From assembly GCF_032854445.1 (NCBI RefSeq), contig NC_088295.1, positions 83,250,644 through 83,314,643 of the forward strand: 64,000 nt of DNA, written 5' to 3'. Of this stretch, positions 1,933 to 54,768 are shown piece by piece (position 1 is the first letter of the stretch; each line of letters begins with the position of its first letter). The notes under the pieces were generated by a model. The model was given only the letters and a program-made list of their open reading frames with translations. It did not search any database and was not told where the DNA came from. This DNA comes from Liolophura sinensis (taxonomy: Eukaryota; Mollusca; Polyplacophora; Chitonida; Chitonidae). The translations under genes were made by a program, and so were the position numbers.

Positions 1933-2020
1933 CTTATTTATTTTATTGTTTTACGCCGCACTCAGGAATATTTCACATATACAAGGGCGTCCAGCATTGT
2001 GGTGGTGAAATTGATGACGA
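1933..2020 (-). mobile_element. SINE family A tail fragment, minus strand
   Basis: The text TTATTTTATTGTTTTACGCC, then CACTCAGGAATATTTCACAT, then GGCGTCCAGCATTGTGGTGG is the reverse complement of the family A 3' end. The copy is broken off after about 85 bp, and the following 250 bp (to 2270) show nothing recognisable. Confidence 0.65.
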
Positions 2021-2269
2021 ATTAAACAGGAAGTTTTTGAAAAGGCGTATAGTGCTTTTAACTTTTCCTGTTCATCGTTAAATTTTGCCACCGAAGTCCA
2101 GAATTGGAACTGCATGATGTTGTGTGCGGTAACAAGCTTGGCGACAACTGTCGGCCTTTTCATTGTCTTCGTGGAATTACGTGTATCAGGTATGTGCTAA
2201 AGTATTTCTCATTCCCCCCAGCGCAATGGGTTCTAGATGACTAGCAGGAAAGTGACACGTTCGGTGGAA

Positions 2270-13410: not shown

Positions 13411-13767
13411 TATGTATGTATCCTTGGAGTTTTACGTCCTCCGTTTTTAGTCTTATAATGAGTCGTTAGGTGCGTTTAGATATACTGTGTCCTCTTGTAG
13501 CAAGGCAAGCCCTTGCCGCCAATGTGCTGCCGTCACTGTCGTATCATGCTGAAGACACCACACAAGACTCAGCCCAGTCGCATTAAACTCACACCGGGCC
13601 AACCAGTTCTGTTTCATTGCTCTATGCCTCTCACTGATGAGTGCCAAGCCAGGAAGTAATAAGTACCATTTTTAAAGTCTTTGGTATGACCCGACCCGGG
13701 TTTGATCCTGGGTCTCCCGAATTCAAGGCGGGCGCTCTAACCATTACGCCACCGGAGCGGTCGAAAG
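13411..13767 (-). mobile_element. SINE family B, minus strand, full length
   Basis: On the minus strand the head reads CGGTGGCGTAATGGTTAGAG (A box), then CGGGAGACCCAGGATCAAAC and CCGGGTCGGGTCAT (B box region). The body has CTTCCTGGCTTGGCACTCAT and GGTGTCTTCAGCATGATACG. The 3' end is ACGTAAAACTCCAAGGATAC followed by ATACATA. This is an independent insertion outside the 1.6 kb duplication, which confirms that family B is a dispersed repeat. Confidence 0.85.
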
Positions 13768-14246: not shown

Positions 14247-16231
14247 AAAATTCAATTTAATAGACGTCACTGATGCAAAATGTTAACTTTCTTCCCTCAT
14301 AGTATAAGGTGCGACAAACGCTATAATGTCAATCGTGCATCTGGTGGCCTCACATGATTTGTAAGCTTTGGTTCTTGATTCCGGACATGAGCCGTGCCGG
14401 TATTAGAGCTCATGTATCACCTCCCTAGGGTTTCACATCTATTTCGTGTCATCAGGGTTGCCAAAGATTCAAAAATAGTTATTCCTACCTCTATTTGTGA
14501 TTACTTGTCTGCCAGCCCAAAAGAATTGGCCTAATGCAAAATGTCAAGGGCCATACCTAACCTGGGGCGTGATCAATTGCCAGATGAAACATTGTCTGGT
14601 GCCTCTGCTCTTACTGAACCGTTTTCTTAGCGGTACAGTTTCTTTGATCTGACCCCTTTACGTTGGGTGGGTAAGACTCGCTTTTCGAGCACTGGCAAAT
14701 CAGAGTAGATGGGGTTTTAATTCCCCCACTTAACACGGGTAATTTGTGTCTTGCCGTCAGAGCGAAGCGCGTTTTAGCCGCGTACCACACGTTTGGGAAG
14801 TGTAGTAGGGCAGGGCATGATGGGCAATTAAGTAGAGACAAGACTGAAATGTAGGAGCGCAAGGTGATCTATTGCTGGAAACGCTAGTAATGATGACTGA
14901 TGAGCACTTGCCGGTACGTGTCGGTAAACAGAACAAGCCCGGCTTAACAAGGCCAACCCGCAATCCATTCCTACATCTGCTAGAAGATGATGGCACTCTA
15001 CTCTGCAGCTTTCCTCAACCCCAACCCCTGTTGTCACCGACAGAAGACCTCCGTCCCTTTCCAAAGTTTCACCTCTGTTACACGCACTACGAGTGCACAC
15101 TCTTACTGGGGCGCCTTTCCACTCGAAGATTCATTGCAGCTTTATATTTACACATATTGGCTGAATAAGGTAAGTGAGTTTCTGCTATATATTGCAGATT
15201 CGCTATCTGTGGATCAAAGTTCTTATTTCAGTAGTTCATGTCTGTAAAAGTACAGCAGTGGCCCCAAATCTGTAGGCATGACAATCTTGCCGCGACCCAG
15301 GCATTGCGCAAAAAGGTAGCTCTAAACACTCTTGGGTAAATTTCGTTACGTACATTTTACATGTTTTCTTTCATGGTCGAGATTGGAAAGATCTCGATGT
15401 TTCATTTCATGTCGATACGTTAATACAGTCTAGTCTCGTAACCCGAATCCGGCTGCCATAACCTCTGACAGTGCCTCAGAACTAAATTGGCATGGAAGCC
15501 CGCTAGAACAGCCACTTAAGATCACGTCTGTAGAAAATCAATACCCAGCACTGCAGCTTCTTCCCCTCGCCTGCCAGGCTTTATCCACCAGATTTGCTTT
15601 TTTACGACTGTGCACACACACAGACCAGCTTGATGCAAAATTTAAAACCATCTTCCCATTCGCGAAATGGTCATTATTTTTTTAACTAAACTGGGAGATT
15701 ATGGTTTCTCCCGGCATTGCCATAAAATTAAACGTAGACAAATTAAAAAGGCAGTACTTCAAACGTTTAAGCAGGGCACGGTGGAGTAGATCATTTAGGG
15801 TATGGCGTCCAGGGACCTTTTCTAATGAAGGATGGCTTCATTAGGACTTGAGATTCTGGAGAGACGGTAAGAAAATCTTTTCTTTCCGGAATACTTTCTG
15901 CGGTAAAGCTGTTTGTTGGCTGTTTTAATAATCTATAATGTTTTTATTTTAAAGATGAAGTGAAAACGTTGGTGAAAGATCTGGAAATAGTTAAGTCGCA
16001 TCATTTGAACTGTTTTCCACTAGTAGGAAGACTTACAAGAACTGTGTAGGAAGAAGTGAACATTTTATGTTCGTTTGAACCACGTATTTGTATTTATTCG
16101 TTCATAACTTATAAAAGGAGAAAGCCACTCTTGTTGGTAAAATCAAGATTTCTGCTAGAATCAATCAGCACAAGCAGCAGTTAAATTTAGCTCAAAAAAA
16201 GTAAATCCGTAACTTTCTTTTTTTTTTTCAG
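14247..16231. other. Upstream region / possible 5' UTR intron of the carboxylesterase gene
   Basis: No coding exon is recognised. Overlapping open frames at 14611-15247 on both strands lack domain features. The esterase start codon lies only 8 bases after a strong acceptor (polypyrimidine tract ending CAG at 16231), so a 5' untranslated exon should lie upstream, possibly in this stretch; I cannot place it. Confidence 0.5.
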
Positions 16232-16238
16232 ACATGCA

Positions 16239-17824
16239 ATGCCCGGAACAAAGAGTGTAAGGAATTTGTATAACGCGATGACTTGGCTTTTCATTTTCTT
16301 GTTGCATTTCAACTCCATCGGTTTTACTCTTCAACTGACGCCATCAGAATGTAAACCGGTTCAAATAGACACAACCAGCGGAGTGTTGGAGGGCTGTGAT
16401 ATCTATGTCGAATCCAGGCAAGCAAATGTGAAACAATTTCTAGGAGTGCCTTACGCAGAACAACCGATCGGCCATCGGCGTTTCAGACGACCGGAGCTTA
16501 AGAAAAGATCACGGGAAGTAGTTATTACAAAGGAATTCGGAAATATCTGTCCTCAAAACCATGGTTGGCTTAACTCTGTGGATGTTAACTTTACTATCGG
16601 AGAGGACTGTCTTTGGTTGAATTTATACGCCCCGGAATCCGCTTCCGAAAACAGAACAGTGGATGTGATGTTCTTCATCCATGGGGGCTCTTACTTGGAC
16701 GGAACAGGAAGCTACTATGAAGGAAAGCACCTGGCTCTTGTAGGGAATGTCGTTGTTGTCACAATAAACTACAGGTTAGGCCTACTGGGTTTTTTGTCCT
16801 CGGAAGACTCCACGTTAATGGGAAATTACGGGCTGTGGGATCAACTCATGGCTCTTCAATGGGTACAGAAAAACATTAAAAAGTTTGGCGGTAATCCCAA
16901 AAGGGTGACCATATTTGGCAACTCAGCCGGCTCCAGTAGTGTGGGAATTTTGGCCTTGTCGCCAAAAAGTAAAGGTTTGTTTAGGCGGATAATAACGCAG
17001 AGCGGTTCTCCGCTAACGCCGTGGGCCTTTGTCCGAAACCCCAGGAGGTTTGTGGAAAAGCTGTCTCACAGTGTCCACTGCACGCGTGATTCGAAAGTGG
17101 AGGACTTCCCGCTAGTGGACTGCATGCGTTTGTTGACAGCAGAGGAGATTTTCAAATTACAGCATCTTGGCCACGTAAAGTGGTCCTATCCGGAGGGTAG
17201 TCTGTTATGGGCTCCTTGGGTTGACGGGGAGTTAATTCTGCACGACCCTGAAATTCTAATCGCCAACAAGTCCTTTTGGCACTCGCCAGAAGTCAAACTT
17301 TTCGGTGAATTTGACCAACTGATTGGTGTAACCAACCAAGAGGCGGCATTTGTGTACGAGGCGAAGATGAAAATAGGAAACAAAGATAAATTGCCGGAGT
17401 TAACGCATACAAAATATCGGAGTTTACTGCGGGAAGTGTCGGCGGCTGTTGTTCCCATAGAATACACGGATGCCTTTGAATCTGTCCTAAGGTTTTCTTA
17501 CAGAGAATTTGATCAACCGATTACTTCCAAAGACAGAGTGGTTCAGTATATTAACATTTACTCTGATTACGCTATTTACACTGGAACGTTGTCTTTGGCC
17601 AAGTTCCATTACAATGTTGCCAAGGGCAAGGGCAAAACTTTTTTCTACAGATTTGATTATCGGGCCAGTTGGAGGTCACGCGAGGCTTGGAGGGTGGGAG
17701 CCACGCATGAAGACGAGTTGCCATTTGTGTTTGGTTACCCAGAAGTCTACTCACAGGGGTCATTCATGGAACGAGCACTCGCTGACACAATGATGATACT
17801 TTGGTCAAATTTTGCCAAAAATGG
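16239..17824 (+). CDS. Type-B carboxylesterase / cholinesterase-like enzyme, exon 1 of 2
   Basis: Alpha/beta hydrolase of the carboxylesterase type-B family, expected to hydrolyse carboxylic esters in the secretory pathway or at the cell surface. Visible features, numbered from the first Met: a hydrophobic leader at about 14-30 (MTWLFIFLLHFNSIGF), oxyanion-hole HGG at 148-150, type-B signature EDCLWLNLY at 122-130, nucleophile Ser229 in GNSAG, acidic residue Glu368 in GVTNQEAAF, and catalytic His490 in GATHEDELPFVFG. The triad is therefore intact. Cys104/Cys124 and Cys281/Cys295 match the conserved disulfides. The acceptor CAG ends at 16231 and the donor GTAAGT follows 17824 (phase 2), joining to 22672-22981. 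Met14 (16278) may be the true start since it sits directly at the leader, and an out-of-frame ATG lies at 16234. The intact triad argues against neuroligin; the substrate (choline ester or other) is not determined. Confidence 0.95.
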
Positions 17825-17934
17825 GTAAGTTTTGTAGCACTGTACATAAGCGAGGTGTGTTCTTGGCAGATTATTTATTTATTTATCTTACCATTCAAGG
17901 ACGGCTCTTAAACTACAAACTGAATCTAATAGAA

Positions 17935-29477: not shown

Positions 29478-30230
29478 TAAACATCATGCTTGCGTCAGTT
29501 CAGAATGATGTATACCAGACTGTCTCTTGTGTCACCATAAGTACCATGTCTGTCTCATTTCAGAGAGTTATATAACGGTCGTTCTCTTGTGTCAGAATAA
29601 ACAGCATGCTTGCCTCATTTCAGAAAGTTTTATAACACTCCCTCCTGTATCAGCATAAACAGCATGCTTGCCTCATTCAGAGAGTCATATAACACTCCCT
29701 CCTGTATCAGCATAAACAGCATGCTTGCCTCATTCAGAGAGTTTTATAACACTCCCTCCTGTATCAGCATAAACAGCATGCTTGCCTCATTTCAGAAAGT
29801 TATATAACACTTCCTCTTGTGTCAGCATAAACAGCATGCTTGCCTCATTCAGAGAGTTATATAACACTCCCTCCTGTATCAGCATAAACAGCATGCTTGC
29901 CTCATTTCAGAAAGTTATATAAAACTTAGTCTTGTGTCAGCATAAACAGCATGCTTGCCTCATTTCAGAGAGTTATATAACACTCCCTCCTGTATCAGCA
30001 TAAACAGCATGCTTGCCTCATTTCAGAAAGTTATATAACACTCCCTCCTGTATCAGCATAAACAGCATGCTTGCCTCATTTCAGAGAGTTATATAACACT
30101 CCCTCCTGTATCAGCATAAACAGCATGCTTGCCTCATTTCAGAAAGTTATATAACACTCCCTCCTGTATCAGCATAAACAGCATGCTTGCCTCATTTCAG
30201 AGAAATATCTAACAGTCTGCCTCTTCTGTC
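29478..30230. repeat. Satellite 1, 58-bp unit, about 13 copies
   Basis: The unit reads CATAAACAGCATGCTTGCCT, then CATTTCAGAGAGTTATATAA, then CACTCCCTCCTGTATCAG. The first copies (29478-29600) are the most diverged and the central ones nearly identical. It shares ATAAACAGCATG, the CCTCATTTCAG segment and the CTC(C/T)TGTGTCA segment with satellites 2 and 3, which follow directly. Confidence 0.93.
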
Positions 30231-31015
30231 ATGATAAACGACATAGGTTACCTTGTTTCACAGTTGTATATGCATGATAGAACTGTCTCTTGTGTCACAC
30301 TTACCTCATTCCAGAGGTGTATATGCATGATATAAGTGTATCTTGTGTCATATTCACCTCAATCCAGAGGTGTATATGCATGATATAACTGTCTCTTGTG
30401 TCACGCTTACCTCATTCCAGAGGTGTGTATGCATGATATAACTGTCTCATGTGTCACGCTTACCTCATCCCAGAGGTGTATATGCATGATATAAGTGTAT
30501 CTTGTGTCATATTTACCTCAATCCAGAGGTGTATATGCATGATATAACTGTCTTTTCTGTCACGCTTACCTCATTCCAGAGGTGTGTATGCATGATATAA
30601 CTGTTTTTTTGTGCCACTCTTACCTCATTCCAGAGGTGTATATGTAAGATATAACAGGCTTCTTGTGTCACGTTTGCTTTATTCCATAGGTGTATATGGA
30701 TGATATAACTATCTTTTGTGTCACGCTTACCTCATCTCAGAGGTGTATATGCATAATATAACTGTCTGTGTGGCGCTTACCTCATTCCAGAGGTGTATAT
30801 GCCGGATATAAGTGTATGCTGTGTCACGCTTACCTCATTCAAGAGGTGTATATGTATGATACCACAGGTCAATTGTGTCACGCTTACCTCATTCCATAGG
30901 TGTATATGCGAGATATAACAGGTCTCTTGTGTCACGCTAATCTAATTCAAGAGGTGTACATGCATAATATAAGTGTATCTTGTGTCACACTTACCTTATA
31001 TCTGAGAGATACATG
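30231..31015. repeat. Satellite 2, about 53-bp unit, about 14 copies
   Basis: The unit reads AGGTGTATATGCATGATATA, then ACTGTCTCTTGTGTCACGCT, then TACCTCATTCCAG. It shares CTGTCTCTTGTGTCA and TTACCTCATT(C/T)CAG with satellite 3 but lacks the ATAAACAGCATGG segment, so it looks like a shortened relative. Confidence 0.92.
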
Positions 31016-31049: not shown

Positions 31050-34000
31050 AATATGCTTGCCGAGAGTATAACGGCCTGTCTCCTGTGTCATAATAAACAT
31101 CATGGTTACCTGATTTCAGAGGAGAGTATAACAGCCTGTCTCCTGTGTCATAATAAACATCATGGTTACCTGATTTCATAGGAGAGTATAACAGCCTGTC
31201 TCTTGTGTCATGATAAACGTCATGGTTTCCTGATTTCAGAGGAGAGTATAACAGCCTGTCTCTTGTGTCATGATAAACATCATGGTTACCTAATTTCATA
31301 AGAGAGTATAACAGCCTGTCTCTTGTGTCATGATAAACGTCATGGTTACCTGATTTCAGAGGAGAGTATAACAGCCTGTCTCTTGTGTCATGATAAACAT
31401 CATGGTTACCTGATTTCAGAGGAGAGTATAACAGCCTGTCTCTTGTGTCATGATAAACAGCATGGTTTCCTGATTTCAGAGGAGAGTATAACAGCCTGTC
31501 TCTTGTGTCATGATAAACGTCATGGTTACCTGATTTCAGAGGAGAGTATAGCAGCCTTTCTCTTGTGTCATGATAAACAGCATGGTTACCTGATTTCAGG
31601 GGAGGGTATAACAGCCTGTCTTCTGTGTCATGATAAACATGATGGTTACCTGATTTCAGAGGAGAGTATGGCAGCCTTTCTCTTGTGTCATGATAAACAG
31701 CATGGTTACCTGATTTCATAGGAGAGTATAACAGCCTGCCTCTTGTTTCATGATAAACGTCATGGTTACATGATTTCAGAGGAGAGTATAGCAGCCTTTC
31801 TCTTGTGTCATGATAAACAGCATGGTTACCTCATTTCAGAGGAGAGTATAACAGCCTGTCTCTTGTAACATGATAAACAGCATTGTTGCCTGATTTTAGA
31901 GGAGAGTATAACAGCTTGTCTCCTGTGTCATGATAAACAGCATTGTTACCTGATTTTAGAGGAGAGTATAACAGCTTGTCTCCTGTGTCATGATAAACAG
32001 CATTGTTAACTGATTTTATAGGAGAGTATAACAGCCTTTCTCTTGTGTCATGATAAACAGCATGGTTGCCTGATTTTACAGGAAAGTATAACAGCCTGTC
32101 TCTTGTGTCATGATAAGCAGCAAGGTTACCTCATTTCAGAGGAGTGTAGGCTATAACACCCTGCTTCTTGTGTCACGACAAACAGCATGATTACCTGATT
32201 TCAGGGGAGAGTATAGCAGCCTGTCTCTTGTGTCATAATAAACAGCATGGTTACCTGATTTCAGGGGAGAGTATAACAGCCTGTCTCTTGTGTCATGATA
32301 AACATCATGGTTACCTGATTTCAGAGGAGAGTATAACAGCCTTTCTCTTGTGTCATGGTAAACATCATGGTTACTTGATTTTATAGGAGAGTATAACAGC
32401 CTGTCTCTTGTGTCATGATAAACAGCATGGTTACCTGATTTCAGGGGAGAGTATAACAGCCTGTCTCTTGTGTCATGATAAACAGCATGGTTACCTGATT
32501 TCAGAGGAGAGTATAGCAGCCTGTCTCTTGTGTCATGATAAACAGCATGGTTACCTCATTTCAAATGAGAGTATAACAGCCTGTCTCTTGTGTCATGATA
32601 AACATCATGGTTACTTAATTTCAGAGGAGAGTATAACAGCCTGTCTCTTGTGTCATGATAAACAGCATGGTTTTCTGATTTCAAAAGAGAGTATAACAGC
32701 CTGCCTCTTGTGTCATGATAAACAGCATGGTTTCCTGATTTCAGAGGAGAGTATAACAGCCTGTCTCTTGTGTCATGATAAACAGCATGGTTACCTGATT
32801 TCAGGGGAGAGTATAACAGCCTGTCTCTTGTGTCATGATAAACAACATGGTTGCCTGATTTCAGGGGAGAGTATAACAGCCTGTCTCTTGTGTCATGATA
32901 AACAGCATGGTTAGCTGATTTCAGGGGAGAGTATAGCAGCCTGTTTCTTGTGTAATAATAAGCAGCATGGTTACCTGATTTCAGAGGAGAGTATAACAGC
33001 CTTTCTCGTGTGTCATGATAAACTGCATGGTTACCTCATTTCAGCGGAGAGTATAACAGCCTGTCTCCTGTGTCATGATAAACATGATGGTTGCCTGATT
33101 TTATAGGAGAGTATAACAGCCTGCCTCTTGTGTCATGATAAACATCATGGTTACTTGATTTCAGAGGAGAGTATAACAGCCTGCCTCTTGTGTCATGATA
33201 AACATCATGGTTACCTGATTTCAGAGGAGAGTTTAACAGCCTTTCTCTTGTGTCATGATAAACAGCATTGTTACCTGATTTCATAGGAGAGTATAGCAGC
33301 CTGTCTCTTGTGTCATGATAAACAGCATGGTTACCTCATTTCAAATGAGAGTATAACAGCTTGTCTCTTGTGTCATGATAAACATCATGGTTACTTAATT
33401 TCAGAGGAGAGTATAACAGCCTGTCTCTTGTGTCATGATAAACAGCATGGTTTTCTGATTTCAAAAGAGAGTATAACAGCCTGCCTCTTGTGTCATGATA
33501 AACAGCATGGTTTCCTGATTTCAGAGGAGAGTATAACAGCCTGTCTCTTGTGTCATGATAAACAGCATGGTTACCTGATTTCAGGGGAGAGTATAACAGC
33601 CTGTTTCTTGTGTCATGATAAACAACATGGTTGCCTGATTTCATCGGAGAGTATAACAGCCTGTCTCCTGTGTCATGATAAACAGCATGGTTAGCTGATT
33701 TCAGGGGAGAGTATAGCAGCCTGTCTCTTGTGTAATAATAAGCAGCATGGTTACCTGATTTCAGAGGAGAGTATAACAGCCTTTCTCGTGTGTCATGATA
33801 AACTGCATGGTTACCTCATTTCAGCGGAGAGTATAACAGCCTGTCTCTTGTGTCATGATAAACAGCATGGTTACCTCATTTCAGAGGAGAGTATAACAGC
33901 CTGTCTCTTGTGTCCTAATAAGCAGCATGGTTACCTGATTTCAGAGGAGAGTATAACAGCCTTTCTCTTGTGTCATCACAAACATCATGGTTACTTGATT

Positions 34001-37000
34001 TCAGAGGAGAGTATAGCAGCCTGTCTCTTGTGTCATGATAAACAGCATTGTTACCTGATTTCAGAAGAGAGTATAACAGCCTTTCTCTTGTGTCATCATA
34101 AACATCATGGTTACTTGATTTCAGAGGAGAGTATAACAGCCTGTCTCTTGTGTCATGATAAACATCATGGTTTTCTGATTTCAGAGGAGAGTATAACAGC
34201 CTGTCTCTTGTGTCATGATAAACAGCATGGTTTCCTGATTTCAGAGGAGAGTATAACAGCCTGTCTCTTGTGTCATGATAAACAGCATGGTTACCTGATT
34301 TCAGGGGAGAGTATAACAGCCTGTCTCTTGTGTCATGATAAACAGCATGGTTACCTGATTTCAGAGGAGAGTACAACAGCCTGTTTCTTGTGTCATGATA
34401 AACAACATGGTTGCCTGATTTCAGCGGAGAGTTTAACAGCCTGTCTCATGTGTCATGATAAACATCATGGTTACCTGATTTCAGATGAGAGTATAGCAGC
34501 CTGTCTCTTGTGTCATAATAAACAGTATGGTTGCCTGATTTCAGAGGAGAGTATAGCAGCCTGTCTCTTTGTGTCATGATAAACAGCATGGTTACCTCAT
34601 TTCAAAGGAGAGTATAACAGCCTGTCTCTTGTGTCATGATAAACAGCATGGTTACCTGATTTCAGGGGAGAGTATAACAGCCTGTCTCTTGTGTCATGAT
34701 AAACAGCATGGTTACTTGATTTCAGAGGAGAGTATAGCAGCCTGTCTCTTGTGTCATGATAAACAGCATGGTTACCTCATTTCAAAGGAGAGTATAACAG
34801 CTTGTCTCTTGTGTCATGATAAACATCATGGTTACTTAATTTCAGAGGAGAGTATAACAGCCTGTCTCTTGTGTCATGATAAACAGCATGGTTTTCTGAT
34901 TTCAGAAGAGAGTATAACAGCCTGCCTCTTGTGTCATGATAAACAGCATGGTTTCCTGATTTCAGAGGAGAGTATAACAGCCTGTCTCTTGTGTCATGAT
35001 AAACAGCATGGTTACCTGATTTCAGGGGAGAGTATAGCAGCCTGTCTCTTGTGTAATAATAAGCAGCATGGTTACCTGATTTCAGAGGAGAGTATAACAG
35101 CCTGTCTCTTGTGTCATGATAAACATCATGGTTACCTGATTTCAGAGGAGAGTATAACAGCCTTTCTCTTGTGTCATGGTAAACATCATGGTTACTTGAT
35201 TTTATAGGAGAGTATAACAGCCTGTCTCCTGTGTCATGATAAACATCATGGTTGCCTGATTTTAGAGGAGAGTATAACAGCCTGCCTCTTGTGTCATGAT
35301 AAACAACATGGTTGCCTGATTTCAACTGAGAATATAACAGCCTTTCTCGTGTGTCATGATAAACTGCATGGTTACCTGATTTCAGAGGAGAGTATAACAG
35401 CCTGTCTCTTGTGTCATGATAAACATTATGGTTACCTCATTTCAGGGGAGAGTATAGCAGCCTGTCTCTTGTGTCATAATAAACAGCATGGTTACCTGAT
35501 TTCAGAGGAGAGTATAACAGCCTTTCTCTTGTGTCATGATAAACATCATGGTTACTTGATTTCAGAGGAGAGTATAACAGCCTGCCTCTTGTGTCGTGAT
35601 AAACATCATGGTTACCTGATTTCAGGGGATAGTATAACATCCTGCCTCTTGTGTCATGATAAACATGATGGTTGCCTGATTTTATAGGAGAGTATAACAG
35701 CCTGCCTCTTGTGTCATGATAAACAGTATGGTTACTTGATTTCAGAGAAGAGTATAACAGCCTGCCTCTTGTGTCATGATAAACATCATGGTTACCTGAT
35801 TTCAGAGGAGAGTTTAACAGCCTTTCTCTTGTGTCATGATAAACAGCATTGTTACCTGATTTCATAGGAGAGTATAGCAGCCTGTCTCTTGTGTCATGAT
35901 AAACAGCATGGTTACCTCATTTCAAATGAGAGTATAACAGCTTGTCTCTTGTGTCATGATAAACATCATGGTTACTTAATTTCAGAGGAGAGTATAACAG
36001 CCTGTCTCTTGTGTCATGATAAACAGCATGGTTTTTCTGATTCAAAAGAGAGTAGATAACAGCCTGCCTCTTGTGTCATGATAAACAGCATGGTTTCCTG
36101 ATTTCAGAGGAGAGTATAACAGCCTGTCTCTTGTGTCATGATAAACAGCATGGTTACCTGATTTCAGGGGAGAGTATAACAGCCTGTTTCTTGTGTCATG
36201 ATAAACAACATGGTTGCCTGATTTCAGCGGAGAGTATAACAGCCTGTCTCTTGTGTCATGATAAACTGCATGGTTACCTCATTTCAGCGGAGAGTATAAC
36301 AGCCTGTCTCCTGTGTCATGATAAACAGCATGGTTACCTCATTCCAGAGGAGAGTATAACAGCCTGTCTCTTGTGTCATAATAAGCAGCATGGTTACCTG
36401 ATTTCAGAGGAGAGTATAACAGCCTTTCTCTTGTGTCATCATAATCATGGTTACTTGATTTCAGAGGAGAGTATAGCAGCCTGTCTCTTGTGTCATGATA
36501 AACAGCATTGTTACCTGATTTCAGAAGAGAGTATAACAGCCTGTCTCTTGTGTCATAATAAGCAGCATGGTTACCTGATTTCAGAGGAGAGTATAACAGC
36601 CTTTCTCTTGTGTCATCATAAACATCATGGTTACTTGATTTCAGAGGAGAGTATAACAGCCTGTCTCTTGTGTCCATGATAAACATCATGGTTTTCTGAT
36701 TTCAGAGGAGAGTATAACAGCCTGTCTCTTGTGTCATGATAAACAGCATGGTTTCCTGATTTCAGAGGAGAGTATAACAGCCTGTCTCATGTGTCATGAT
36801 AAACAGCATGGTTACCTGATTTCAGGGGAGAGTATAACAGCCTGTCTCTTGTGTCATGATAAACAGCATGGTTACCTGATTTCAGAGGAGAGTACAACAG
36901 CCTGTTTCTTGTGTCATGATAAACAACATGGTTGCCTGATTTCAGCGGAGAGTTTAACAGCCTGTCTCATGTGTCATGATAAACATCATGGTTACCTGAT

Positions 37001-38850
37001 TTCAGATGAGAGTATAGCAGCCTGTCTCTTGTGTCATAATAAACAGTATGGTTGCCTGATTTCAGAGGAGAGTATAGCAGCCTGTCTCTTTGTGTCATGA
37101 TAAACAGCATGGTTACCTCATTTCAAAGGAGAGTATAACAGCCTGTCTCTTGTGTCCATGATAAACAGCATGGTTACCTGATTTCAGGGGAGAGTATAAC
37201 AGCCTGTCTCTTGTGTCATGATAAACAGCATGGTTACTTGATTTCAGAGGAGACTATAGCAGCCTGTCTCTTGTGTCATGATAAACAGCATGGTTACCTC
37301 ATTTCAAAGGAGAGTATAACAGCTTGTCTCTTGTGTCATGATAAACATCATGGTTACTTAATTTCAGAGGAGAGTATAACAGCCTGTCTCTTGTGTCATG
37401 ATAAACAGCATGGTTTTCTGATTTCAGAAGAGAGTATAACAGCCTGCCTCTTGTGTCATGATAAACAGCATGGTTTCCTGATTTCAGAGGAGAGTATAAC
37501 AGCCTGTCTCTTGTGTCATGATAAACAGCATGGTTACCTGATTTCAGGGGAGAGTATAGCAGCCTGTCTCTTGTGTAATAATAAGCAGCATGGTTACCTG
37601 ATTTCAGAGGAGAGTATAACAGCCTGTCTCTTGTGTCATGATAAACATCATGGTTACCTGATTTCAGAGGAGAGTATAACAGCCTTTCTCTTGTGTCATG
37701 GTAAACATCATGGTTACTTGATTTTATAGGAGAGTATAACAGCCTGTCTCCTGTGTCATGATAAACATCATGGTTGCCTGATTTTAGAGGAGAGTATAAC
37801 AGCCTGCCTCTTGTGTCATGATAAACAACATGGTTGCCTGATTTCAACTGAGAATATAACAGCCTTTCTCGTGTGTCATGATAAACTGCATGGTTACCTG
37901 ATTTCAGAGGAGAGTATAACAGCCTGTCTCTTGTGTCATGATAAACATTATGGTTACCTCATTTCAGGGGAGAGTATAGCAGCCTGTCTCTTGTGTCATA
38001 ATAAACAGCATGGTTACCTGATTTCAGAGGAGAGTATAACAGCCTTTCTCTTGTGTCATGATAAACATCATGGTTACTTGATTTCAGAGGAGAGTATAAC
38101 AGCCTGCCTCTTGTGTCGTGATAAACGTCATGGTTACCTGATTTCAGGGGATAGTATAACAGCCTGCCTCTTGTGTCATGAAAAACATGATGGTTGCCTG
38201 ATTTTATAGGAGAGTATAACAGCCTGCCTCTTGTGTCATGATAAACAGTATGGTTACTTGATTTCAGAGGAGAGTATAACAGCCTGCCTCTTGTGTCATG
38301 ATAAACATCATGGTTACCTGATTTCAGAGGAGAGTTTAACAGCCTTTCTCTTGTGTCATGATAAACAGCATTGTTACCTGATTTCATAGGAGAGTATAAC
38401 AGCCTGTCTCTTGTGTCATGATAAACAGCATGGTTACCTGATTTCAGGGGAGAGTATAACAGCCTGTCTCTTGTGTCTTGATAAACATTATGGTTACCTG
38501 ATGTCAGAGGAGAGTATAACAGCCTTTCTCTTGTGTCATCATAAACATCATGGTTACTTGTCATGATAAACAGCATGGTTGGCTGATTTCAGCTGAGAAT
38601 ATAACAGCCTTTCTCGTGTGTCATGATAAACTGCAATGGTTACTTAATTTCAGAGGAGAGTATAACAGCCTGTCTCCTGTGTCATGATAAACATGATGGT
38701 TGCCTGATTTCAGAGGAGAGTATAACAGCCTGTCTCCTGTGTCATGATAAACATCATGGTTACCTGATTTCAGAGGAGAGTATAACAGCCTGTCTCTTGT
38801 GTCATGATAAACAGCATGGTTACCTGATTTCAGAGGAGTGTATAACATTT
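31050..38850. repeat. Satellite 3, 60-bp unit, about 130 copies, with higher-order repeats
   Basis: The unit reads TCTTGTGTCATGATAAACAG, then CATGGTTACCTGATTTCAGA, then GGAGAGTATAACAGCCTGTC. Period 60 is kept almost throughout, with rare 1-bp indels (about 34569, 36672, 37156), a 3-bp loss near 36440 and a deletion near 38560. Multi-unit blocks recur: 32521-32980 against 33301-33760 (780 bp = 13 units), and about 34030-35960 against 36550-38480 (about 2522 bp, 42 units). Because 60 is divisible by three, both strands carry long frames of 20-residue repeats (CHDKQHGYLISEESITACLL on plus, KSGNHAVYHDTRDRLLYSPL on minus). These are a by-product of the period, not supported genes. Confidence 0.97.
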
Positions 38851-41287: not shown

Positions 41288-42035
41288 TTACACTCTGCTT
41301 TTGCTCTCGTCTCGAATTTGAAAGCATTGCGGTTTAGCTGGCAGCAGTCTGAGCAATGCGAGCCTAAAACGTCGAGACATGACGTTATACACAATAGGAT
41401 TCACGGCACTGTGAAGGTATACTAGGATCTGAGGAAACCGCAGCAAGCTCAGATAACCGACAATTCCTAGCTGAAGCAGACTTTTCTTAGAAGCATAAAT
41501 CATCCAGAGACTGACAATCCGGAATGGCAGTACGCACATAAAGAGCAAAGTAATCAAAGCGATCAGCATAAATATCACTTTCCTTCTAGCTCGTGACACA
41601 GAAGGCCTTGAACTGCCGTCTCCAAAAACGCAATCATCATTGTCCATTCCTGTCGGAGTAATGTCCTTGGACAAACGGCGAATTAGAGCGCTGTAAAGGT
41701 AAGCAAAGACAATGACAGGAACCAGGTACATGACAACCACCATGCCCACGATGTACACCTGCTTCCACTGGTCCTCGATAGTCACCCTACAGACGGGCAC
41801 CATTCTGCCGTCATAGAACTTGGATAGTTTGTGCGTTGTGATGAAGACAAGTGGCAGGCATATGAAGACGGCCAGAGTCCAGAGACAGAGCAGCGTTGCT
41901 AGCTGTCGGTCCCGCAGACAGGTGTTACATCGGCGGAATGGGTGGCAGATGGCAATATAACGCTCTAGGCTAATCACCAATACCGTTAGAATGGACACCG
42001 TCGTCGCCGTGTTCTCCAGAAAGGGATGACTCGAC
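41288..42035 (-). CDS. Class A peptide-receptor-like GPCR, exon 2 (TM3 to C-terminus), frame broken in TM3
   Basis: Membrane receptor signalling through G proteins; the ligand is unknown. Visible features: end of TM3 with ERY (SLERYIAICHPF), TM4 tryptophan (LLCLWTLAVFICLPL), ECL2 cysteine (MVPVCRV), TM5 (VVVMYLVPVIVFAYLYSALI), TM6 (FMLIALITLLFMCVLPFRIV, where the usual CWxP is CVLP), TM7 NPIVY, then helix-8-like SRRFRLALLRLL and stop at 41288. Acceptor CCCCCTCACAG precedes 42035. Spliced in phase 1 to exon 1 it gives MC-RVIPF and then shifts frame; the downstream frame resumes as LENTATTVSI. One base appears missing near 42020. The LPFR motif in TM6 and general pattern suggest an invertebrate neuropeptide receptor (TRH- or ghrelin-receptor-like names are common by similarity), but I cannot fix the subfamily. 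Confidence 0.9.
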
Positions 42036-45000
42036 CTGTGAGGGGGACAAAGACAAATTACACCTTGTACAACAAGACAATATGGGCAGAGAAACGATGG
42101 AGCTACAGGAAAGGAATCCTTGTAATAGGCTGTATGGGCCCTCGAATACAGCAGACGATATAGGGCTGTTGGCGACTGTGGGTGGTGGGATAATGCAAGT
42201 CGCCAACCGGAGAGTAGGATCAGTCCTGATTAACAATAATGGGTCTAATAATAATACACACGAAGTTCACAAAACTCACCCAGCGTAACATATGAAAATG
42301 TTATATACACAGGCCAACTGCACACAAGTATAGGAGAAAACAACTAGAAGTTTTTAGTGATAAAATAGGCAAGAAATTGTTTCCAAGCATATAAGCTTAG
42401 CTTAAAATACAAGACGTCGTTACCATTTGTCAGCTATCACACTGTCGTTGTTGCCAGCTTGTTTACTCTCCGTGCTATAACTGAAGTCTTTTATTATATT
42501 TAAATGCACATATTCTCCCCTGCCCCTTTGTGGTCAATCAGATTCACACCAACATATACACATATAAAGACGTGCTCATGGGGTATTAAAAAACCAGTAT
42601 CTGTAAAATGTGGAAAAAATAAAAACATAAATTAAACATATCCTGACATATGTAGTGGTAAGGAAGTGTGTACCAAATGTGAACAGTTTTACTTATTTAG
42701 TTTTTACAATAGCGTGGTCACAAGATTACGTCACACGCAAACACACTAATGCACTGACAGACCCTCACGATCATATATGAACAGGTGCACGCCCCATGAA
42801 GATTGGGACGTACTTTTTCGGGGCTTCGGGAATGACGTCACAAATTCGTGTTTTTAGCATCTACTTGTCATAATGAACATCTGCAAAGAAGGACAAAGTC
42901 GTGATTCCATGCATGAGACCGCTGAAAAAGGGTAGGCGGGGCGATAAGTTAGAAATTGTTACAATTTTTCAGATGTGACGTATATGTAAATATGACGGGG
43001 AAATACAACCATGACCCCTCACTCCTCCCCCACACGAAAAGTAATTCAGGCAGTTTTCTCCTTTTCAGTTAGGGAAGAACTTCGAAAATGAGATTTTTTC
43101 TGTATCTCGCTGGAAATTATTATCCAAACACAACTTCAACTAATCCGCCTGTTTGCCATTGATGAAATTAAATTCTACGTTTCTTGTTTGTTGATAATCT
43201 TATTTCCGTTTTAAGGACAAACGTTAGGTCTGGGTGAAAACTAATAACAATGAAACTGATAGATGTATGGCCATGTTAGTGAGGGATTTCCCATCATCTT
43301 AACCTAGAAATAGTTACCCTCTTTGCATACACAAGGCTGTCATGATTTAAAGAGAAATTTGCAGACAGCCAGTAAGTAATAAAGTAATGGCGCTGAAGTG
43401 TTATAAATGTAAATCGTTTGAAGCGTCTGGTCTAAAACGCAAGTGACAAACACCTCTGATTAGCTTTGTTTGGGGGGTCAAATGGCTAGAACAGCGTCAA
43501 GTCAAGGCATCCATTCCTGGTAGCTATGTGACGGCTTGACACCATTTCGTGAGTCTTGTTTCTCCTCACTTTATCCTGATGGCATTTGAATACGCATGAT
43601 AAGTGAAATTAAGTACGAGATAGAGGAATGGATTAAATATACCGCTATTTTCGATTATCACTGGCTTTGACCAATCATTGACGATCATTGGTTGTATTTG
43701 TTGAGAATTTGAGTTCTGGAGACCAAATCGGCTTGCCTAGAAGAAATAATCGAAGATGTGAGACACTTGATCTCTGTGCAATGTCATCATTGGCGGCTTG
43801 CCCTTCTCCCACTAGACAAACTATTGCTCAGTATTCCCGGGCCATCAATAATTTAGCTAGAGAGCAACATCCCCTCAACGGTTTGTTCTCATCACATGAT
43901 GCCTAATAAACGACTACATAAGACACTCGGATCCCAGAAGTATCATTAATGCATACAGGCCACTGTCAGAAAATATGGCTGAGGCATTAATCAAACGTTA
44001 ATGGATGCGTGAACAGTCGTGATACTTCAATCTTTCCTATGATGTGTGTCCTAAAAACATGCTCTTTTACCCGTGATATGTTGATCACAAACATCTTGAC
44101 ATCGCTTGGCAGGGCGATAAAGCCTGGGAGGAGTTTTACCTGGAACACACACGCAGTTCTCATTGCAAAGGGTCAATGAGGGGCTTCTTCAGAATGGCAT
44201 CGTGATGGTGATTTAGAAAAAGCGAAATACTTGCACATTGGGGTTATAAAATCGAACGTGCAATCAATGATAGACATACACAATGTGATTTTGAAAAACG
44301 ACAGTGCGATCAGCGATAGACGTGTGCACTGGAGTTATCAAAAACGATCGTGCATTCAACGAATGTACATTGTGGTTATGAAAAAAAAGCGATAGGCATA
44401 TGCACTGGAGTTATCTATGTATGTTTCTATGCTTGGTTTAACATTTAAAATGCGGGTTTTAGGGCCACTTCCCTTTCCGATATCGTGGCCCGTCAAATCA
44501 GTGCTTTTATTAATACATATTACATTTCTTTGTTTTGTTTTGTTTTTTTTGTTTACACACTTACTAGTCCATATTTACATTAGTTTTACGTTTGTGTTCA
44601 TTCAGTATATAAGATGATTTGAGCAGATTATAAATACTGTGTTATCGAAGAAATGATAGCAAATAGTAATAATAATAACACTAATAGTAATAATAGTAAT
44701 TACAACAGCTGTGATAAAGATAGAACAAAATATCTATGGATTGAAACACCAATAACAGGCTTGATAGATAATAGTTCCCTTGCCTCCTTCTCTGTGACAA
44801 GGTGTACAAGTGCCTCTGACATCAATACTGGACTGTTCTCCAAAATCCTTTGTCACTTCAGGAAGTGGCTATAGGAGAAAGCAAATTCGACGTTAACGTG
44901 TTATGTGTGTCTTACTTTTGAAGCTTTACTTATTGACTAAAGTGAAATAGGTACAAGAGTTTTACTATTGAAGTTTTACTTGACTGAAATAATAATAGTA

Positions 45001-47610: not shown

Positions 47611-50350
47611 CGCACACACGCACACGCACGCACACATACACACGCACATACATGTAAATGCTTAAACAGTGACAACGTATACCCCCAAATCTCCCTGGCT
47701 AAAGCAGAAATAGGTAAAAAAAAGGTGGGTGTGGGAGTTAGTTTGGGCAGCAATTTATCAGACGTCACAAGTCCAGGATTACTTAAAAGGCTGAGTCGTC
47801 ATCACACTTAATAAGCAAGATGAAATCAATGCAAAGAGTTACGATTTTGGACATGGTCAGTCATATCAGTCTGTGAGGAGTTTAACTTGGTGCTAATTAA
47901 GCATTTAGGTGAACACTTTGAACAAAACCTTAACACAGATAAATCGACAAGAGGTCGTATTTGACCGGTTATGTGTGACCACTTGCCAATTATCACACTG
48001 TCGTCACTGCTATGGTTTTAAACTCTGTGTTGTAAGTTTTTTGTTATTTTATATCATCTCGTGGCGCAAATATAAATGCTTGGTTTCTGATGTGAGCTGT
48101 CTGGATCGTTCCCTTTACGTTAACTTTGCGAAAAAGTTTTTAGTCAACGAAGTAGCCAAGGTATATCAGATAAGCTTTTTTTTTCAGCTTCCTTTCCAAA
48201 CCCGAGAGCAACCGATTAGCCTTCACTTCACTAAGTGGTAGAACCTTCTTATTCCTTGTATTGCAGGTATTTGTATCCTGCCCCAAAGTTGTAGCTGCGA
48301 CGTTACACAAAGCTGTCATCAAGGGATCATGTTTTCAACCAGTATGATAATACAACGGGAGAGTCAGGTAACAGGTTGAGCTGTGCACACACAGTCAGTG
48401 CTCCGCCTCCGTACACTGTCAAAAATCATATAGTGTAAGGAAAAGTTGTCATTTCAAATTAGAACAAAATGCATTAGCTAAAGATACAAAATGGGTTATA
48501 CTAAAAAGGGTGCGTTTTTAATGGGATGCATTTTTAGTGCATATTTTCCTTGAACTTCACAATAAAAAACAGAATGGCAAATTTCAGCATAGCTTCCGGA
48601 AACAAATATTCCGATGCATTACTGTTCGGAATAAAGCGCTAGATGATTAGTTTGCGATCCGCAACCGGCTTCAATCGGCTTAAATCTGCAGGAAACCATG
48701 CTACCACTAAAAAAAATTTTTCAAAAAAATTTTTCAAAAGGACTTTGACATCAAGTACGCTCCTAAAATGATGTCATTCTTTTAATACCAAAAGCAAAAT
48801 AATAGATATAAAATTTAAAAAGATACAGGAAAACTCCCAAACTGACAATATCACCAGTTTTGCACGTTTCACTAAAACTTTTCAAATCCTTCTGCCATGG
48901 CGATGTTCCAACACGCAAATCATCCAGATTGTTTCTCGCTTACCTCTAACATAATGTTTTATCTTTCTACGGGGTAATAGCGAAAGTGAAATTGTATTGA
49001 TCTTGTTTAGCATAACGCAACATTCAGTACTGATCTAAACAACACGCTGTCTAACCTATCATGTTAACTCGTGAAAGGTTTCTTGACAACAGTTAACTGT
49101 AATCAAGCAAAGTTCATGACGTTTTATGCATACTGGTTGTAATAAAAAGGTAACAGGAATAACTCAAAATAGATTGACTACATGAAAATAAATAGAAACA
49201 GCATCCAACCTCAAGTAATTGTCAGACAGGAAACTTCTCCATACCTGTTATGAAGTAATGGGATACAGAGTAGAGCGTTTGATGACGGGACAAAGTTCAG
49301 AGAACTTTATATCACGCATCATTCAGCCAATCCGATAACTATATAGAAGATAGAAGTTAATGGTGTGCTTAACCACAGTGGCACAGAAAAGCATCGAACA
49401 AACCAATAATGCTGAGAGCTTTATTGGAGCACCACGAACATCAGCGCTGCTTTGTAACGGTATAGTTGTTTAGTAAATCTTTCATAATGTTATGTTTGGC
49501 TATATGTATATATATTCAGTGTACAAAAGTTTGTTTTAGCTTCCATTTACGCTTTATATTCTAAGTTATAAAATATAACTTATGAATATAAATATGAATA
49601 TAAATATTCATAACACGGCGTAAAACACCAATCCAATAAACAAACAGACCCTATATCCCTCTTATATAACAAGATTAGGGCATTTCTTACATTTAGAAAG
49701 GTCACAAAAGTGCAGGGTGATAAGATGGGTTTCTCCGTGATGTGTCAAACCATCGGTTTCTCCAGCAGATGTTCTGGAGATCACGGACCATCCTTTCATG
49801 GATAAAAACATACACGTTTCGCTATGATTGCAACGCCAGTGTAAGAGAAACATGTATGTTATGTTGACATTACTGATGCCAACCCATATTAAATATCAGT
49901 TTTTGTTAAGCCGGTCCAATCAACATATTCCCACGATATCAATGCATTACAGCAGAACTGGTGTTGGGCCCCAATCATCCATTCATCCCATCAACATAAA
50001 CGATTCACGCAATCTTAACAGAAGATAAACTATTTTAAACATCGTTTTTCGTTTGAAGTTATCGGAGTGTGCTTTGTCCGCTGTTGGCGTTGAGACCCAT
50101 AGAGTGGGATCTTTAACATTTTTCACTTTTCGTAGAAATCTCTTGGTTATTTCATATTTGGAAACAAAAATATTGCAAAGAAAAGAACAGCAGACAAATT
50201 AGCCTGTGTTTAACAAGCTATTGATTTAGCATCTGTAGTTTCTGTATTGGTCATTCTAAGAAACCAACTGCTACATAGCCATGCATCAAAAGAAAAACAT
50301 GTATAAATAGCATCATCCTTAAAAACGAGACAAAGGAAAGCAGGACTCAC

Positions 50351-50660
50351 ACATGACTTCTCCCAGATACCAGATCTCTTGTGTAAACAGATCCATGAGA
50401 GCTGTGGGCTGGGCTATGAGGATGACCAGCAAGTCAGCTACAGCTAGGTTCAGCAGAAAAACTCCTGTTGTCTCAAACAACCCTCGATTCTTCAACAAAA
50501 CCCCTATGACGGCCACGTTACCCAAGAGTCCCGCCAGGAAAATGACGACGTTCAGTGAGGTCATTAACACCAGGAAGTAGGTCGGGGTCTCAAACTGGCC
50601 GCAGTCTACCCTGTTGTCAGCACAAGGTTCTTCGCTTGCATTCATTGTAGTCCCTTTCAT
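50351..50660 (-). CDS. Class A peptide-receptor-like GPCR, exon 1 (N-terminus to start of TM3)
   Basis: Starts at ATG 50660 (MKGTTMNASEEPCADNRVDC). A short extracellular N-terminus carries one N-glycosylation sequon (Asn7-Ala-Ser). TM1 spans about 28-54 with the conserved Asn48 in GLLGNVAV. TM2 spans about 67-90 with Asp76 in NLAVADLL. Trp97 in ECL1 (EIWYLG) is followed by Cys104, the TM3 disulfide cysteine, whose codon is split by the intron (ATG T|GTGAGT). The donor GTGAGT is canonical, and the phase 1 junction matches the exon 2 acceptor. Exon 1 coding (310 nt) plus exon 2 (748 nt) is 1058 nt, one base short of 353 codons, consistent with a single missing base. Most of the 5' UTR is probably the next 150 bases upstream. 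Confidence 0.9.
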
Positions 50661-51796
50661 CAATGAACTTTGAGTGTCAGGACGGAGAGTAGTCTGGTTG
50701 AAGTCGGGCCCCGGCTCTCCCGGTCTCTATCTGAAGATTGACTGAGCAGTTAGCAGCCTCGTCCACTGCGATCTGTGAAGGCGTATCCATACGCTGTGGT
50801 TCAGGCCAGGTGTGTTCTACAAATGGCAAACGAGTCGCTATCCACTCACATCGATAATCTCACACCCGTAGAGACATGAAAATTTACATTTTGAATAATT
50901 TCCTCTCTCTAACGTTTCTAGCACGTGTCGTGAATCTGTTTTTTTTTTTTTTTTGTTTTTGTTTTTTTTTTTGTTTTTTTTTATCATGTGTCTTATTCAT
51001 GGTTTCAGTTAAACCCAATGACGTTTATTACACCCGTGCGTGTAGAAAATGACGCGAGCCTGGCCCGTTTGCACAATATTCAGCATGTGGTCAGGGAAAT
51101 CGCTCGTATTGAATTTTTACTGACATTTACTGGCTTTTGAAGATTTGTATTCATGCACATTAAATCAGCAAACAATATAAATTTACATTCCCCCTGGAAG
51201 TTCATCGAATTAGTTCAAAGGAACAAATGTTACCGTTTGGTGTTTTACACGACTTCAACGCGAAACCTTACAAAGAATACACATTACCAATCAAGATTGC
51301 TGTATCACTGAAGCTGTTTTCTGGGGTTGTAACTATCCACCCGCAGTGACATTTTCATCTGAAATATAATCCATACTACATCACTGCAATTTAGAAATAA
51401 TGTGACACTAACAGATAGCAACACTCCAGGGCAAGTTCAAAAAAACACAGTTATTCTTAAAATATACCACACATTTGAAGACGTTTGACGTAAGCAAGCT
51501 CAGTGATTTTGCTGGATTCTCTCATTTGTTATGAAGTATAACTGAGCTCGTTGAAGTTAGCACAAGATTCCAAGACAATACTCAACACCATATTTGACAG
51601 AATGCAGCTCGTGCAATGTGTAGTACTTGAAAGTCTGAAAACACTATTTATCAAAATATAACCAGAAAATGTATTGTCCAGTCATTGTCAACACCGAGCA
51701 AGAGCCAAACATACATTTTCTCATTTCCGTCAAATGAAACTACTTGACTGTCAGCATGTTTATAACTTACAGTGAGAAACATCAATCACAAACCAG
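50661..51796. other. Upstream region of the GPCR gene
   Basis: It probably contains the 5' UTR and promoter of the minus-strand receptor gene (the G/C-richer stretch 50661-50830). A T-rich run with scattered G lies at 50938-50983. No TATA box or exon can be assigned with confidence. Confidence 0.4.
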
Positions 51797-53639: not shown

Positions 53640-53918
53640 TATAAACACATCAAGACTACAGTTAAGGAACATTGAATTCAAAGTTAACACCCACACCGCT
53701 TGGAATTTGAATTCAATGTTCCCTAACTGTTGTCTAGATGTGTTTATACCTTGGATCCCTATACACAACAAGGAATCCATGGTGCTGTGATTGGCATTCA
53801 GCTGGAACAACATCTAAGTTAACACCCCCACCGCTTGGAATTAGATGTTGTTCTTCCCAGCTGAATGCCAATCACAGCACCATGAATTCCTTGTGGTATA
53901 TGGGGATCCAAGGTATTA
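53640..53918. repeat. Twin inverted repeats (two hairpins) with a shared 23-nt loop
   Basis: Hairpin 1: left arm 53640-53682 (TATAAACACATCAAGACTAC...) pairs with 53706-53748 with about four mismatches; loop 53683-53705. Hairpin 2: left arm about 53746-53817 (TACCTTGGATCCC... to AACAACATCTAA) pairs with 53841-53917 with few mismatches and a 3-nt gap; loop 53818-53840. Both loops read GTTAACACCC, A or C, CACCGCTTGGAA in the same orientation, although the stems are unrelated. The hairpins abut with no spacer. The arrangement equals rc(S)-loop-S-loop-rc(S), where S is 53706-53817 and the outer copies are partial. No transposase or RNA family is recognised. Confidence 0.92.
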
Positions 53919-54720
53919 ACAGCCAGAAATAATTGATACATTTATAACCATGACCGGAAATGAATTACTGCTTGACCTGGTTCGAGAAATGCGCATAATA
54001 AATTGACTTATATAGTCCCAGTCGTTTGGCTTCCGTTGTGCTTTAAACAACAGTTTGTTAGCTTCCTATATAGAGCTTTCAGACAAGAGATAAACGAGTA
54101 AAGCTCTGATGTGTTAAAGATTGCTATATTGAACATTATATAGTGCTTACGTGGCCTACATAAACATCTATCCAGAAAAGCACGTATAGGTGACTTGTTT
54201 TGTGCACAAAAAGTACAAGAAATCAAGGCTAAGGATTTGGAAATTGTGTCAGCCAGATAGTATCCAAGACTCTAATACATCCCAGGTGATTACAGAGGCT
54301 GGGTTTTGGTATTGTTCGTGGTATCGTTAATAATACTAGGGAAATGTATTTCATTAGAAAGATAAAATCTTTTCATCCGTAGGTTGATTTGTGCTTTATT
54401 TGCCAAATGGCGAGCTAAGACTCTATTACACATACAAAAGATCTATCAAAATGTGGGAAAAACAACGTTTTCCGGTCACCTTTCCCTATATTTGTCCCAA
54501 ACAAATTGTAATTGGAAGTAAAGTTGATCACCTGAAATAGAATCCAGTAAATTCGCTACGTGATTCATTACTGTAAGTTTAAACATCACATGTCAAGCTG
54601 TCTTTGTGGCATCAGACATGGATTCGATTTTGACATTTTTAATTATTCTTGCTTGGATAGCCATATACCCAAGGGTCTTACTGGCATGTACATATCTCGC
54701 CTTGAAGCATTTGCTAGACC
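53919..54720. other. Intergenic, nothing recognised
   Basis: A/T-rich sequence without recognisable genes or repeats. Confidence 0.5.
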
Positions 54721-54768
54721 CTGTCTGTCTGTCTATATATATATATATATATATAGACAGACAGACAG
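54721..54768. repeat. 48-bp perfect palindrome
   Basis: Fourteen bases of CTGT repeats, ten AT units, then the fourteen-base complement made of ACAG repeats. The sequence equals its own reverse complement over 48 bp and could extrude as a cruciform. Confidence 0.95.

Follow-up and report, generated by a model that had tools for sequence, protein, structure and literature searches.

Two adjoining hairpins around a common loop

The DNA analyzed here is a 64,000-nucleotide stretch of Liolophura sinensis contig NC_088295.1 (hereafter, the window, to which all coordinates refer). At window positions 53640–53921, it holds 2 long hairpins in the order a-L-a'-b'-L-b, where a and b denote the outer arms, a' and b' the inner arms, and L the loop. 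In stem 1, the outer left arm a (53640–53682, plus strand) pairs with the inner arm a' (53706–53748, plus strand), an inverted copy of a, the 2 arms being complementary at 40 of 43 positions. Stem 2 is formed by the inner arm b' (53741–53817, plus strand), an inverted copy of b, and the outer right arm b (53841–53921, plus strand), which are complementary at 72 of 77 aligned positions; the outer arm is longer by 4 nt, located near 53854–53857, which appear as one 4-nt gap in the alignment. Each stem encloses a copy of L of 23 nt on the plus strand (53683–53705 and 53818–53840), the copies having identical orientation and differing at a single position (A/C). As a direct repeat, the loop extends to 27 nt (53681–53707 and 53816–53842), with AA and TT at its ends. 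The stems are mutually unrelated (local alignment scores of 6 and 7). These measurements bear out the initial annotation of the locus as 2 hairpins with unrelated stems around one 23-nt loop kept in the same orientation. The same annotation had the hairpins touching without a spacer; a spacer is indeed lacking, but the stems go beyond mere contact and overlap by 8 nt (53741–53748).

The inner block S, composed of a'b' (53706–53817, 112 positions), is tiled by the 2 outer arms, with a covering positions 1–43 and b covering positions 36–112, in agreement with the layout originally described, in which the outer arms are partial copies of S. Within the 8-position overlap, TGTTTATA (from a) and TGTTAATA (from b) are alike at 7 of 8 positions; agreement at 7 or more of 8 positions was reached in 0.2% of 200,000 draws of random flank 8-mers. 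The sequence TGTTTATA constitutes the join of a' and b' (53741–53748, plus strand) and recurs in inverted form at both outer ends, as TATAAACA at 53640–53647 and as TATTAACA at 53914–53921. The outer ends therefore bear almost the same 8 nt in direct orientation (TATAAACA/TATTAACA), a possible target-site duplication that we tend to read as microhomology because these 8 nt also occur, inverted, at the inner join. Other candidates for a target-site duplication around the locus were just shorter or overlapping A+T-rich matches. Since the outer arms cover S once, with an overlap of 8 nt, a single ancestral a-L-b suffices, and the 2 partial outer copies complete one another, so that S reads as inverted a followed by inverted b. 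Inverted copies of flanking DNA adjoin the joint on both sides, over 43 and 77 nt. Arm a, continuous with the left flank, and arm b, continuous with the right flank, would be ancestral, and the inner arms a' and b' would be new sequence; if a-L-b is the ancestral arrangement, the sole new material would be one insert, consisting of the second L plus a'b'.

Divergence between the copies amounts to 3 of 43 positions in stem 1, 5 of 77 positions plus one indel in stem 2, and 1 of 23 positions between the loops. Pooled over the arms, 8 of 120 positions differ (4 transitions and 4 transversions), in addition to the 4-nt indel. Fisher tests comparing stem with stem and stems with loops yielded p = 1.0, with little power given the few sites, and the counts are compatible with a single age for arms and loops, as would be expected if a single event was succeeded by neutral decay. 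Of the 5 mismatches in stem 2, that at 53745 falls inside the 8-nt join and could have arisen when the ends were joined.

Both strands are predicted to fold strongly. For a 361-nt region, z-scores were −19.6 for DNA folding of the plus strand and −18.5 and −18.9 for RNA folding of the minus and plus strands, respectively; in each prediction, 0 of 100 shuffled sequences did as well. The loop pattern was observed 2 times in the window, against 0.00 expected from shuffling. At gathering scores, Rfam gave no match at the locus, its sole match in the window being a tRNA at 13687–13758 (minus strand; 33.1 bits, against a cut-off of 29), which may be a tRNA gene or else a repeat derived from a tRNA.

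Copy number in the genome and recurrence of the layout

When searched against the 609-Mb assembly, the full 279 nt of the locus returned the self-match alone, and the loop L, with up to 3 mismatches allowed, was found at its 2 occurrences within the locus and nowhere else. The left flank (1,141 nt) likewise produced only its own match. The right flank (1,086 nt) enters a dispersed repeat from about window position 54602, and its first 687 nt were untouched except by the self-match among the 43 matches listed (best 40 of 791 candidates scored). The repeat, of approximately 100 bp (about 54602–54735), has many genomic copies and lies beside runs of TCTG/TA and an extended (AT)n tract. The genome search scores the best candidates only and passes over very common words, and the assembly may contain gaps; the same search readily picked up repeats, including that of the right flank and 3 control hairpins. 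A genome-wide search for the loop flanked by inverted arms, which the initial annotation had put forward as a check, thus revealed none beyond this locus in the 609-Mb assembly. Compared with viral_contigs, a collection that may omit near records, L had 0 exact matches.

Recurrence of the layout was assessed in a sample of 26 pieces of 10 kb taken at preset places plus the window, totaling 324,000 bases in 27 sequences; L001 and L002 were excluded because they repeat the locus. The sample contained 63 hairpins, 40 of which had a score of at least 12 and a loop of at least 10. Loops recurring within 1.5 kb were found, among those 40 hairpins, at this locus and in tandem arrays only, the arrays being located at window positions 29478–30214, L016:1253–2051, and L023:2380–3922. 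Five hairpins scored at least 22, namely, the 2 described here and 3 from the 260 kb of sampled pieces, and a sixth scored 20–21. These 3 long hairpins (L013:9498–9650, L013:6090–6271, and L025:7439–7696) are members of MITE-like families with many copies. No second a-L-a'-b'-L-b scar was detected among the 324 kb, which represent about 0.05% of the genome, using an ungapped detector. This detector caught stem 2 only in part, reading its loop as 51 nt, and can therefore miss such scars; together with the small share of the genome sampled, this means that the recurrence result says little about rarity.

A putative two-ended fold-back event

The structure is real and unusual, and is best explained as a two-ended fold-back scar, not as a new kind of element. 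Probably, this single-copy scar was left by one germline accident, in which 2 ends folded back, copied their own sides, and were joined. Whereas the anatomy, the tiling, the microhomology at the junction, the single copy found, and the compatible ages can be read directly, we infer the ancestral state, the involvement of a break or of forks, the mode of copying (priming or capping), and the enzymes.

In the proposed course of events, the ancestor would have carried a-L-b once. Two 3' ends, one per side and both extended through L, could have been generated either by a staggered break with overhangs of approximately 23–27 nt or by 2 forks converging on L. Each end would then have folded back at the edges of L, leaving L as the loop; the putative fold-back site is a short imperfect inverted repeat, TCAAA...TTAGA, with 4 of 5 bases complementary. 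From there, each end would have copied its own side, namely, 43 nt of a and 77–81 nt of b, by fold-back priming or, alternatively, via an end capped as a hairpin and subsequently nicked away from its centre. In the capping variant, the overhang would be ligated to its own recessed strand before the off-centre nick. The new 3' ends, TGTTTATA and TATTAACA on opposite strands, may subsequently have paired across 8 nt, one of them mismatched, before being joined. The resulting a-L-a'-b'-L-b would display a common loop orientation, different stems, and no spacer, all from a single event, and the loop would be the same and in the same orientation because L is the stretch common to both ends. By this route, which we somewhat favor, an ordinary stretch of approximately 145 nt would have turned into 2 long hairpins with a common loop in a single step. 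The earlier suggestion of template switching on a small circle was in the right neighborhood, but the circle is unneeded, with 2 fold-backs and a microhomology join being sufficient.

The edges of the 2 loops coincide to the base. In a rough model of random breaks combined with independent random 2-bp snap-backs, such coincidence arose in 322 of 200,000 draws, and in an equally rough model with both termini given, its frequency was 1 in 72. A single stagger or a single inverted repeat would produce the coincidence by geometry, and the coincidence provides the strongest indication that both edges were set by one or the other. The inverted repeat bordering L is itself a weak one. Flanking repeats of the TCAAA/TTAGA grade accompany 16 of 773 (2.1%) 23-nt intervals in the joined flanks and 792 of 63,957 (1.2%) such intervals in the window, and there are 86 equally good inverted-repeat choices nearby, with spacers of 10–59 nt. 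As much AA/TT as found at the loop edges is present in 50 of 686 random intervals. As for amplicons formed by ODIRA, their 2 ends use different inverted repeats.

The individual steps of the proposed event are already known singly. No title or abstract opening listed in searches of the open-access literature described a two-ended shared-loop product, subscription papers being mostly outside the scope of those searches. The V(D)J P nucleotides offer a programmed counterpart, in which 2 hairpin ends opened off-centre give the joint a-a'-b'-b; unlike at this locus, no loop lies between a and a', the copies are tiny, and the process is programmed. P-nucleotide copies comprise one to three base pairs (PMC3528771).

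Human Pol theta extends stem-loops from 2 terminal base pairs, after which end joining can ensue, and the reported inverted insertions measure 3–30 bp in mammalian cells, with 6-nt loops being most favorable in Drosophila (PMC11292364). The snap-back reaction outlined in that report resembles the one proposed here in that a 3' end folds on 2 terminal base pairs, copies its own side, and is joined through microhomology; at this locus, however, both ends would be involved, the copies are 43 and 77 nt long, and a loop of 23–27 nt is duplicated (PMC11292364). The 23-nt loop is larger than the loops favored there, and the 43- and 77-nt copies exceed the Pol theta inserts given, which counts against a simple fit (PMC11292364).

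In yeast, fold-back annealing at inverted repeats of 3–15 bp leads to hairpin-capped ends; wild-type fold-back priming events at breaks are described with a 5-bp repeat and a 35-bp spacer, and Mre11 is said to act less well on hairpins whose spacers exceed 12 nt (PMC10622511). Inverted junctions attributed to ODIRA, also in yeast, are ascribed to errors of replication rather than breaks, and the preferred repeats plus spacer span 40–80 bp, compared to the shorter spacing at this locus (PMC10766183). If taken as a model, the ODIRA study leans toward forks over breaks as the possible source of the ends here (PMC10766183). In both yeast systems, short spaced inverted repeats centre inverted duplications, as at this locus, but the products described are large inverted duplications or triplications (PMC10622511, PMC10766183).

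Protruding ends get duplicated on joining after paired nicks, such that the stretch between the staggered nicks is doubled in direct orientation, as is L; in the simple case presented, unlike here, no inverted flank copies separate the duplicates (PMC5730883). Closer to a two-ended event, cancer genomes have yielded 23 instances of reciprocal foldbacks at both ends of one break, and under breakage-replication/fusion, a staggered end gives rise to 2 offset breakpoints, the fusion of which is a fold-back (PMC12807874). The likeness is that each end of one break yields a fold-back; those events are from cancer genomes and were paired under a 20-kb adjacency threshold, and they are not described as linked in cis over 112 bp, whereas the locus analyzed here would be an old scar in the germline whose two sides have a 23-nt offset in common (PMC12807874). 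Microinversions, for which flanking inverted repeats and a break-repair model have been reported, also place a short inverted segment beside inverted repeats, but the segment is replaced by its own reverse complement between the flanking repeats, whereas at this locus, L is doubled without being inverted and the copying affects the flanks (PMC8755829).

On these grounds, we lean toward viewing the locus as a germline fossil resolved to the base pair, in which both ends of one staggered break, or 2 converging forks, were self-primed or capped and rejoined in cis. If this is true, what appears to be the layout of an unknown element would be the readable trace of one repair or replication accident, and paired hairpin loci would have a one-step origin from unstructured DNA, the 2 long hairpins being raw material for hairpin RNAs. 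The signature a-L-a'-b'-L-b would then be searchable in any genome, the stagger, the copied length, and the joining microhomology would all be readable from it, and such a search would measure the frequency with which breaks fold back on both sides.

Alternative origins and the surroundings of the locus

Although we doubt it, the locus could have been produced by a single replication event with 3 template jumps, that is, a six-point template switch. Starting from the same ancestral a-L-b and giving the same junctions, the polymerase would copy a and L, jump back, and copy a in reverse, then, at TGTTWATA, jump to the distal end of b, copy it in reverse, and return to the start of L. Short-range template switches with inserted segments of up to 128 nt, as well as switches whose return point precedes the departure point, occur in great apes (PMC7954356), and template switching can create hairpins (PMC8794818). 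The published four-point event, however, copies one contiguous inverted segment; a-L-b contains no such continuous counterpart of a'b', and the polymerase would have to jump a third time. This jump must reuse the 2 positions of the first one in the opposite sense, a coincidence for which the rough models described above, at 322 of 200,000 or, with the termini given, 1 in 72, indicate the order of magnitude for an equivalent case. Simpler switches were considered and rejected. A single four-point template switch fails because, read as a reverse complement, a'b' would require b to lie directly before a, an order that a-L-b does not offer, and serial four-point switches, followed through by hand, yield no second direct copy of L without a return to the original template.

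Insertion of a closed dumbbell, close to the small circle or hairpin evoked in the initial annotation, is unlikely. Here, a 112-bp duplex S with the same loop L capping both ends would have been nicked in mid-stem and captured. A nicked dumbbell does reproduce exactly the order rc(S1)-L-S1-S2-L-rc(S2) along the strand, its 2 loops face the same way, and the outer 8-nt near direct repeat could pass for a target duplication; that supposed target repeat, however, would also need its inverted occurrence in mid-stem. Moreover, the dumbbell requires 2 identical loops without a visible source, given that L, S, and the left flank were otherwise absent from the genome search and that L is without an exact match in viral_contigs.

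A functional origin, as a source of long hairpin RNAs that enter small-RNA processing, appears very improbable. The strong predicted folding of both strands as RNA would suit such a role, as would a position approximately 3 kb upstream, with respect to the minus strand, of the rhodopsin-like receptor frame at 50319–50726. Set against these are the lack of an Rfam match at gathering scores and the shared loop and the tiling, which this explanation does not address. Such a role could still have been acquired by the scar at a later stage.

Elements mobilized by the same transposase have ends in common. Two neighboring foldback or MITE insertions from a family with a conserved loop would be expected to do so as well, but the 2 stems are unrelated and provide no common terminal sequence. 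Long hairpins in this genome are often repeats, and the 3 other sampled hairpins scoring at least 22 are multi-copy; for the loop and arms described here, no further copy was found in the genome. The element family was dropped after the genome searches with the 279 nt, the loop, and the left flank found this locus alone, and the foldback element with the loop as its recognition site, one of the possibilities raised initially, is contradicted by these searches, in which neither the loop, with up to 3 mismatches allowed, nor the arms were found elsewhere. We consider such insertions scarcely probable. Equally hard to credit is a sequencing or assembly artefact by read-through of a hairpin-adapter library molecule, since, although a dumbbell library molecule, L being its adapter, would yield this order, the arms differ by 8 substitutions and one 4-nt indel and the loops by one substitution, L is found nowhere else in the genome and is presumably not the PacBio adapter, and the outer arms end in mid-stem, the left one continuing into single-copy DNA.

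Elsewhere in the window, tandem arrays are prominent. A 60-bp array of about 125 copies occupies 31062–38557; as its period is divisible by three, either strand gives long open frames composed of 20-residue repeats. It is adjoined by a 58-bp array (29478–30214) and a 53-bp array (30265–30996). A further array, with a 25-bp period and about 72 copies, extends over 2532–4341, and the GC skew reaches 0.51 over 2001–4000. Minus-strand open frames at 41288–42229 and 50319–50726 encode rhodopsin-like receptor domains and are perhaps exons of one gene; for the former frame, the best solved-structure matches are neuromedin-U and neurotensin receptors. A long plus-strand frame at 16191–17828 belongs to the carboxylesterase family (Pfam COesterase, E = 7.4e-125).
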